From positions 1-64,000 of the forward strand of contig NZ_REFO01000012.1 in NCBI RefSeq assembly GCF_003688665.1: a stretch of 64,000 bases of DNA, given 5' to 3'. The notes under the pieces were generated by a model. It did not search any database. It saw only the letters and a list, made by a program, of their open reading frames with translations, and was not told the origin of the DNA. Numbering within the stretch: the first letter of the stretch is position 1; each line of letters begins with the position of its first letter. This stretch comes from Hydrogenothermus marinus. Lineage in GTDB: Bacteria; Aquificota; Aquificia; Aquificales; Hydrogenothermaceae. The translations under genes and the position numbers were made by a program. Positions 38,867 to 40,689 of the stretch are shown piece after piece.

Positions 38867-39405
38867 TTTTTAACTGCAACTAAATAGGCTTTTCTACCTT
38901 TTCTACCATCATTTCTTATTACATCTTTTTCTTGATAAAAAACCACATAAAAATCAATAAATAATCTTAAAAGCTCATTTTCTCTTAAATAAAAATCTTT
39001 TGTTTTAGATTCTTCATTTAAAACAAATGTTTCAAATATTATTACTCCATCTTTTTTTAATCCATCCTTTATCTTTGGAATTAAATTTCTATTTAGGAAA
39101 TTAATATTTATTATCAGCTCATATCTATTTTCAGGTATTTGATAATTATCTAAATCAGCTACAATAGCATTTATATTAGGATTTTTTTCTTTTAGTTTAT
39201 TGATAGCCACATCTGAAATATCTACTGCATCAACTTCAAAACCTTTTTCTTGCAGAAAAATAGAATTTCTACCAGTTCCACAGGCAATATCTAATGCTTT
39301 ACCTTTTTTAGCTATATTATAAAAATCTTTTACAATTTGGGAAGGTTCTTCAGGTAATTTTTCTTCTAAATATTTTTTATTCCATCTTTTTTTATCTTCA
39401 AGCAT
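38860..39405 (-). CDS. Class I SAM-dependent methyltransferase (TehB-like)
   Basis: 181 residues. Motif I ALDIACGTGRNSIFLQEKG at about 37-55, followed by VDAVDISDVAINKLKEK (motif II) and a post-motif INFLNRNLIPKI. Tellurite-resistance TehB and related small-molecule methyltransferases share this layout. The substrate cannot be told. It overlaps both kdsC (8 nt) and the MATE gene, so the three are translated together. Confidence 0.8.
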   Translation of the reverse strand: MLEDKKRWNKKYLEEKLPEEPSQIVKDFYNIAKKGKALDIACGTGRNSIFLQEKGFEVDAVDISDVAINKLKEKNPNINAIVADLDNYQIPENRYELIININFLNRNLIPKIKDGLKKDGVIIFETFVLNEESKTKDFYLRENELLRLFIDFYVVFYQEKDVIRNDGRKGRKAYLVAVKKC

Positions 39406-39919
39406 CTGTAAATTCCTTTATAATTTTTTCATACTCATCTCTTAGTTTTAAGATTAGTTCTACTACCTCTCTAACAGCCCCTTCTCCTCCTTTCTTTTCT
39501 GTAATATATATACAGAAATTTTTCACATCTTCTACAGCATCAGCTACTGCTACAGGAAAACCCACTTTTTTTAAAACAGGAATATCTACTAAATCATCAC
39601 CTATATATAAAATCTCTTCATCTTTTAATGAATATTTTTCTTTTATATTATTATAAGTATCTATCTTTTTTCTTTTACCTTGAAAAACCTCATTAATTTT
39701 TAGTTCATTTGCTCTTCTTTCTACCATAGGAGAGTTTCTTCCTGTAATAATCCCTGTTTTTATTCCTGCCTTATGTAAAAGTCCTATAGCAAGGCCATCT
39801 TTTATATTAAAGGATTTTAGTTCATTTCCTTTAGAATCATATATTACTTTACCATCAGTTAATACTCCATCTACATCCATAAGAAACATCTTGATTTTTA
39901 AAGCTTTTTCTTTTAACAT
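39398..39919 (-). CDS. kdsC: KDO-8-phosphate phosphatase
   Basis: 173 residues from the ATG at 39919. Small HAD phosphatase: nucleophile in FLMDVDGVLTDGK, threonine/serine motif in GIITGRNSP, lysine in QGKRKKIDTY and metal site in YIGDDLVDIPVL. This is the KdsC arrangement, which hydrolyses KDO-8-P to KDO for lipopolysaccharide. The reading frame stays open to 39994, but the extra 25 residues are hydrophobic and unlike the family, so the shorter start is preferred; AGGTG upstream is a modest ribosome site. It heads kdsC, methyltransferase, MATE and a small membrane protein. Confidence 0.9.
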   Translation of the reverse strand: MLKEKALKIKMFLMDVDGVLTDGKVIYDSKGNELKSFNIKDGLAIGLLHKAGIKTGIITGRNSPMVERRANELKINEVFQGKRKKIDTYNNIKEKYSLKDEEILYIGDDLVDIPVLKKVGFPVAVADAVEDVKNFCIYITEKKGGEGAVREVVELILKLRDEYEKIIKEFTDA

Positions 39920-39923
39920 TCTG

Positions 39924-39937
39924 TTGACACCTGTCAA
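39924..39937. promoter_or_regulatory. Palindrome TTGACA-CC-TGTCAA, possible operator or promoter element
   Basis: Perfect 6-bp arms around CC, five bases upstream of the kdsC ATG. Read rightwards, TTGACA is followed after 17 nt by ATATAT (39947-39952), a plausible sigma-70 promoter running toward pyrE. As a palindrome it could also be a repressor site controlling kdsC or its leader. Confidence 0.4.
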
Positions 39938-39980
39938 GTTTATGATATATATTAGTTTACAGGAAAAAAAGAGCTTACAA

Positions 39981-40058
39981 ATAAAAAAGGGCACCTAAAA
40001 GGTGCCCAAAAGCGTAAATTGGTAGGTACGGCAAAACCTTTAGGAGGGTAGCCATGGA
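39981..40058 (-). ncRNA. Candidate small RNA or kdsC leader/attenuator
   Basis: A complete minus-strand transcription unit with no ORF. A TTGAAA-N16-TATAAT promoter precedes a start near 40057; about 50 nt of unusually GC-rich sequence follows (including ACCCTCCTAAAGG, whose CCTCCT matches the anti-Shine-Dalgarno), then a strong hairpin and U tract. Predicted length is about 77 nt. It could be an independent sRNA, or a leader whose terminator is relieved to allow transcription into kdsC 60 nt downstream. I do not recognise it as a known riboswitch. Confidence 0.55.
39983..40007 (-). terminator. Intrinsic terminator of the small RNA
   Basis: GGGCACCT (39989-39996) and AGGTGCCC (40000-40007) form a perfect 8-bp stem with a 3-nt loop. 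On the minus strand it is followed at once by six T (complement of 39983-39988). On the plus strand there is no T tract, which fixes the orientation. Confidence 0.75.
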
Positions 40059-40082
40059 TATATATTATATACGAATTTCCTA
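40053..40082 (+). CDS. Possible nine-codon leader peptide upstream of pyrE
   Basis: ATG-GAT-ATA...TCC-TAA encodes MDIYYIRIS. A strong AGGAGGG (40042-40048) sits at about 5 nt before the ATG. It ends 46 nt before pyrE and is antisense to the small-RNA promoter. Nine codons may be chance; the good ribosome site is the only support. Confidence 0.25.
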
Positions 40083-40091
40083 ATATTTCAA
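40064..40091 (-). promoter_or_regulatory. Sigma-70-type promoter TTGAAA-N16-TATAAT
   Basis: On the minus strand the -35 TTGAAA is the complement of 40086-40091 and the -10 TATAAT the complement of 40064-40069, with a 16-nt spacer. Transcription would begin near 40057 and run into the terminator 50 nt later. It lies in the pyrE leader region. Confidence 0.5.
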
Positions 40092-40128
40092 GTTTTATAT
40101 TTTTATACAAATAAATATGAGGTAATGT

Positions 40129-40689
40129 ATGAATTACAAAGATAGATTGGAAACCTTAATCAAAGAAAGAGCATTAAAGATAGCAGATAAACCTATTTTT
40201 AAACTTTCTTCTGGAAAAATGAGTACATATTATATGGATTTAAGAACTATTACCCTTGATCCTGAAGGTGGTTATATTATAGGTAATATTATTTATGAAA
40301 TGATTAAAGATAAAAATCCTGATGCTATTGGTGGCTTAACCCTTGGAGCAGATCCAATATCTTATGCCACTGCATTAGTTTCTTATTTAAATAAAAATCC
40401 AATAAAACCTTTTGTAGTCAGAAAAGAACCAAAAGGACATGGTACAGGAAAACAGATAGAAGGGAACGTTAAAGAAGGAGATAATGTTTTTATTGTTGAG
40501 GATGTAGTAACAACTGCTGGTTCATCTTTAAAAGCAGCAAAAGTAGCAAAAGAAGCAGGATTAAATGTTTTAGGTATAATAGCAATTGTTGATAGGGAAG
40601 AGGGAGGAGAAGAAAATATAAAAGAAGAAGGGTTTAACTTTTATCCTCTTTTTAAAATTTCCCAATTTCTTAATAAGCAGGATGTTTAA
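40129..40689 (+). CDS. pyrE: Orotate phosphoribosyltransferase
   Basis: 186 residues. The PRPP-binding motif VFIVEDVVTTAGSSLKAA is at about 122-139, and the orotate side has FKLSSGKMSTYYMDLR at about 24-39. It joins orotate to PRPP to give OMP in pyrimidine synthesis. GAGG lies 8 nt before the ATG. No other pyr genes are adjacent. Its end overlaps the opposing ccsA-like gene by 20 nt. Confidence 0.94.
   Translation: MNYKDRLETLIKERALKIADKPIFKLSSGKMSTYYMDLRTITLDPEGGYIIGNIIYEMIKDKNPDAIGGLTLGADPISYATALVSYLNKNPIKPFVVRKEPKGHGTGKQIEGNVKEGDNVFIVEDVVTTAGSSLKAAKVAKEAGLNVLGIIAIVDREEGGEENIKEEGFNFYPLFKISQFLNKQDV

Follow-up and report, generated by a model that had tools for sequence, protein, structure and literature searches.

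Known base-pairing RNAs related in kind to a predicted small RNA of Hydrogenothermaceae

IsrR of Staphylococcus aureus (PMC9410917) and FsrA of Bacillus subtilis use C-rich single-stranded stretches to pair with the Shine-Dalgarno regions of iron-containing respiratory enzymes, including molybdenum enzymes (nitrate reductase, FdhA), in AT-rich hosts in which G-runs are mostly Shine-Dalgarno sites. RyhB (RF00057) is a terminator-tailed small RNA (sRNA), whereas MicA (RF00078) and other porin-repressing sRNAs combine a promoter, an unstructured 5' seed and a strong terminator and pair with an outer-membrane β-barrel mRNA at its start. For the order to which Hydrogenothermaceae belong, the only earlier survey found describes ncRNA candidates n1-n99; its novel candidates are from Aquifex aeolicus (Aquificaceae), no targets are proposed, and its main text does not mention kdsC, pyrE or Hfq (PMC4227106). 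Searches for sRNAs in Persephonella or Hydrogenothermaceae found nothing else.

Here we analyzed a locus in a 64,000-nucleotide stretch of Hydrogenothermus marinus DNA (hereafter the window). The predicted RNA carries one anti-Shine-Dalgarno core plus a separate coding-region seed, while IsrR is 174 nt, has three C-rich regions, and is Fur-controlled and Hfq-independent; no sequence or synteny relation to IsrR or FsrA was seen. The locus shares with RyhB a terminator tail and the proposed repression of several heme/Fe-S enzymes at their translation starts, though its pairing sequence differs, no Fur control has been shown, and the RyhB covariance model scores only 14.7 bits (E 2.9) against a gathering score of 55. 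One predicted target is an outer-membrane β-barrel mRNA paired at its start, as for MicA, but the MicA model gives 23.7 bits (E 0.11) against a gathering score of 41, and the phylum, pairing sequences and promoter are unrelated. The kind of regulator is known, while the family, its candidate regulon and its presence in this phylum look new within the papers searched.

A promoter-to-terminator unit upstream of kdsC

The minus strand contains a sigma-70-type promoter (40064–40091) composed of TTGAAA (40091–40086), a 16-nt spacer and TATAAT (40069–40064), which matches 11 of 12 consensus positions and is joint best of 52 promoter-like sites in 10 kb. It is followed by about 50 nt and by an intrinsic terminator (39983–40007), consisting of a perfect 8-bp hairpin (40007–39989) and six T (39988–39983). 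The promoter, hairpin and T-run are exactly where a sequence-only reading had placed them. The predicted RNA of about 75 nt spans 39983–40059, with its start estimated at 40059–40057. Promoter-like sites in general are no commoner than in shuffled sequence (64.8 expected), and only three terminator-like sites were found in the same 10 kb against 3.0 expected, so the parts alone could be chance. However, the ~76-nt RNA folds better than all 200 shuffles (z −3.56), and the promoter, 5' core and terminator recur in 20 other genomes. Two statements of the sequence-only reading need correction: the region was said to have no ORF, yet a 26-codon frame (ATG 40055 to TAA; 40055–39975, minus strand; MATLLKVLPYLPIYAFGHLLGALFYL) runs through the RNA, though relatives do not keep it, and the region was called GC-rich, which is relative, at 45% in a 27% GC window.

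No Rfam 15 riboswitch or leader matches at the gathering threshold in the 64 kb, and relaxed matches to MicA, DapZ, mmgR and RyhB are sub-threshold and driven by the terminator. No tRNA or tmRNA was found. The conserved downstream neighbor is kdsC (39398–39919, minus strand; start codon taken as ATG 39919), followed by methyltransferase and MATE genes, and the same order is observed in relatives. On the plus strand, the fold is not notable (z −1.74), and pyrE is not the neighbor in the relatives examined, which argues against a pyrE leader. A second strong promoter-like site on that strand (39924–39953, TTGACA-18-TATATT, 11/12) would nevertheless give pyrE a leader of ~170 nt (39960–40129) that is a complete antisense of the sRNA, and this could be a local sponge.

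Conservation and covariation within the family

BLAST and a covariance model (R1) built from 11 homologues find the element in 21 of 41 Hydrogenothermaceae genomes, representing five genera (designated g1, g2, g4, g5 and g7), and not in g3, g6, g8, g9 or g10. The model hits 19 family genomes at E < 1e-9 and a further one (G013) at 3e-4, with nothing of comparable strength outside the family among 112 genomes of the order, which include its two other families; one more genome (G014) was added. In 20 of the 21 genomes the element lies upstream of kdsC on the same strand, while the gene on the other side varies: pyrE in the window, and uvrA, a lipoprotein gene or Cmr-type genes elsewhere. The exception is G012, in which the RNA lies between fabZ and a phosphoesterase gene. 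All eight terminator pairs show changes on both sides in 20 homologues, with 94% of cells paired and a covariation score of 0.694, against 0.254 in shuffles and at most 0.14 when slid.

The RNA has two pairing regions. Region 1 (40040–40052, minus strand), GCUACCCUCCUAA, is antisense to Shine-Dalgarno regions, and the CCTCCT noted in the sequence-only reading is the center of this 13-nt core. The 13-mer GCTACCCTCCTAA is invariant in the first 12 homologues aligned and altered in some later ones (g2, G014, G017, G022, G025 and G027/G028). The core is largely unpaired in the predicted folds (0.47–1.0, mostly above 0.6). Region 2 (40012–40031, minus strand), CCGUACCUACCAAUUUACGC, with the core CCUACCAAUUUACGC at 40026–40012, is antisense to codons 2–8 of a FadL-type outer-membrane protein (OMP) gene at G000:C12:165268 (contig C12 of the window's genome, G000; BLAST E 0.003).

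The spacer between the −35 and −10 elements (promoter region 40090–40064, minus strand, and homologues) holds a conserved pseudo-palindrome, AATATTCnGATATT in g2 and part of g7 and TTGAA-N3/4-TTCAA in several, which is a possible operator. A copy also lies before a TolC-like gene near a Crp/Fnr-type gene. A search for this operator gave about 66 hits, more than the reversed-pattern control, but mostly inside genes and without a clear regulon.

Complementarity to a molybdoenzyme operon and an outer-membrane protein

In the window's own genome, the two best BLAST matches other than the locus itself are the first codons of the FadL/OmpP1-type protein (ATGCGTAAATTGGTAGGTTCGG) and the Shine-Dalgarno region of an NrfC/TtrB-like Fe-S (B) subunit (AAACCTTTAGGAGGATGGCC), 6.7 kb apart. 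The only other exact 13-mer in that genome is the Shine-Dalgarno of the catalytic (A) subunit, 1.5 kb further on. All three sites lie in one cluster (G000:C12:152000-171000), which contains type II DMSO-reductase-family genes, then the B, NrfD-like and A subunits of a Psr/Phs/Ttr- or Soe-like molybdoenzyme (below all equivalog cut-offs; nearest solved structure thiosulfate/polysulfide reductase 2vpw), a TorD-like chaperone, a ferredoxin-like protein, the FadL-type protein and a PF03601 membrane protein. Two different DMSO-reductase-superfamily enzymes are side by side. When RNAduplex was run against 320 translation starts sampled from the genome, the OMP ranked first (−35.5), the B subunit second (−33.3) and the A subunit seventh (−25.3), against a background of −14.8 ± 4.8 kcal/mol. 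These energies ignore target structure and Hfq, and they were computed at 37 °C for thermophiles. A flagellar hook-like gene of the same genome (L250:9521, minus strand) has UAGGAGGGUAGUC before its start and ranked fourth, making it a possible further target; a FlgI-like gene in G022 also has a site.

The complementarity is lineage-specific and compensated. For the B subunit, own sRNA-mRNA duplexes average −33.0 kcal/mol, with up to 24–25 uninterrupted pairs, whereas orthologous starts of genomes then scored as lacking the sRNA give −18.1, a set that includes G001 and also G014, later found to carry it. The extension beyond the Shine-Dalgarno differs by genus, being AAACCUUUAGGAGG in g1, GGUAAAUACUUUUAGGAGGG in g2 (24 uninterrupted pairs with its own RNA) and CGGUAAAUAUUAUUAGGAGGGUA in part of g7. 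The g7 mRNAs score about as well with g2 RNAs as with their own, so the genus effect for this target is clear for g1 and g2 and weak for g7. In G012, G013 and G022 the B-subunit pairing is no better than chance, and in G027/G028 it is interrupted.

For the OMP, the analysis was restricted to coding bases so that no Shine-Dalgarno is involved, and each genus's RNA fits its own genus best: g1 RNAs with g1 mRNAs (−36.6 against −25), g2 with g2 (−28.3) and g7 with g7 (−30.7). Genomes without the RNA give about −4 to −15 (about −10 for genus g9), G026 excepted. Within g7, a two-sided change from CCUGCCACC/GGUGGCAGG to CCUGCUACC/GGUAGCAGG keeps the helix in G027 and G028. G012 and G013 lack region 2, and their OMP genes lack the complementary codons, while G025 lost the anti-Shine-Dalgarno core but kept region 2. 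The two seeds therefore evolve as modules.

A wider candidate regulon

Sites with the 13-mer (at most one mismatch) placed directly before a start codon number 47 in RNA-carrying genomes and seven in the others, although many belong to orthologues inherited together, so the 47 are not independent. Three of the seven are in G001, a gapped, 89% complete assembly of the same genus; the rest are rpsL (two genomes), a small unnamed protein and a NuoN-like gene, i.e. background. G001 and G026 (78% complete) carry target-like sites but no detected RNA. The target families are the B and A subunits, a YgaP-like TM protein (PF11127), SoxA and SoxX (over NCBIfam cut-offs), KatG-type peroxidase, multihaem cytochromes, encapsulin (NF041155), a DsrE-like protein, porin, acetyl-CoA synthetase and MscS. 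In the window's genome, a di-haem cytochrome c peroxidase has a partial site, AGAGGGUAGC, and the YgaP-like gene has the site with one inserted T. Many of these are heme, Fe-S or sulfur-metabolism proteins, and the target list suggests iron, oxygen/redox or sulfur supply as the inducing signal.

Discussion

The evidence strongly supports the view that this locus is the gene of a trans-acting, base-pairing sRNA; a self-contained sRNA gene was one of the two readings proposed from sequence alone, together with the proposal that its CCTCCT could pair with Shine-Dalgarno sequences. Without expression data, transcription from the promoter is inferred. The predicted RNA ends in an intrinsic terminator with a U-tail, the kind of 3' end that Hfq binds; T-rich tails are also present in relatives, and Aquifex Hfq binds U-rich RNA (PMC5379935). 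Hfq (PF17209) is encoded in 41 of 41 family genomes, with two homologues in nearly every one, and the RNA is probably Hfq-dependent. Region 1 is predicted to pair with the Shine-Dalgarno and flanking bases of the B and A subunit genes and of other envelope, heme and redox proteins, and region 2 with codons 2–8 of the OMP. Pairing at these places would block ribosome binding and lower expression; repression rather than activation is inferred from known sRNAs such as RyhB and IsrR (PMC9410917).

It remains possible that the element is a dual-use 5'UTR, in which one promoter makes mostly the terminated trans-acting sRNA and, by read-through, the kdsC-methyltransferase-MATE mRNA. This would extend rather than oppose the trans-acting model. 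It is consistent with the conserved synteny and with genera g5 and g7, in which the kdsC ribosome-binding site follows the terminator at once, leaving no room for a separate kdsC promoter, so that kdsC is probably read by read-through there. In the window, however, there are about 60 nt between the terminator and kdsC, enough for a separate promoter, and G012 has lost the link.

A solely cis-acting leader of kdsC, with the terminator as an attenuator and the upstream RNA sensing a ligand or protein, is unlikely; an attenuator leader for kdsC was the other reading proposed from sequence alone. Its position upstream of kdsC in 20 of 21 genomes and the arrangement in g5 and g7 favor it, and in g7 CCGAA before and UUCGG after the terminator can pair, the latter overlapping the kdsC ribosome-binding site, which suggests possible cis control of read-through mRNA. 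A leader role is not excluded as a second function, but it cannot be the main explanation because in G012 the RNA is not next to kdsC and because attenuation of kdsC does not predict pairing, or compensatory changes, with unlinked mRNAs; nor does any Rfam riboswitch match. A small leader peptide is very unlikely: the frame is open in the window and G004 has GTG at the same place, but there is no ribosome-binding site (the ATG is a few nt from the predicted start of transcription), the frame stops after four codons in G024, and G003 and G002 have no start codon. Chance, although any CCUCC pairs with purine-rich ribosome-binding sites, is contradicted by conservation across five genera with a covarying stem, by complementarity that extends far beyond the Shine-Dalgarno and tracks genus, and by pairing of region 2 inside coding sequence.

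Within the papers searched, no base-pairing sRNA with identified targets is described for Aquificota, although these bacteria keep Hfq. With 21 homologues, a defined candidate regulon and visible compensatory changes between RNA and mRNA, this family makes it testable whether Hfq-type riboregulation works in deep-branching thermophiles at high temperature, and links it to sulfur chemolithotrophy. It is also a clear natural record of sRNA-target co-evolution with two independently evolving seeds.
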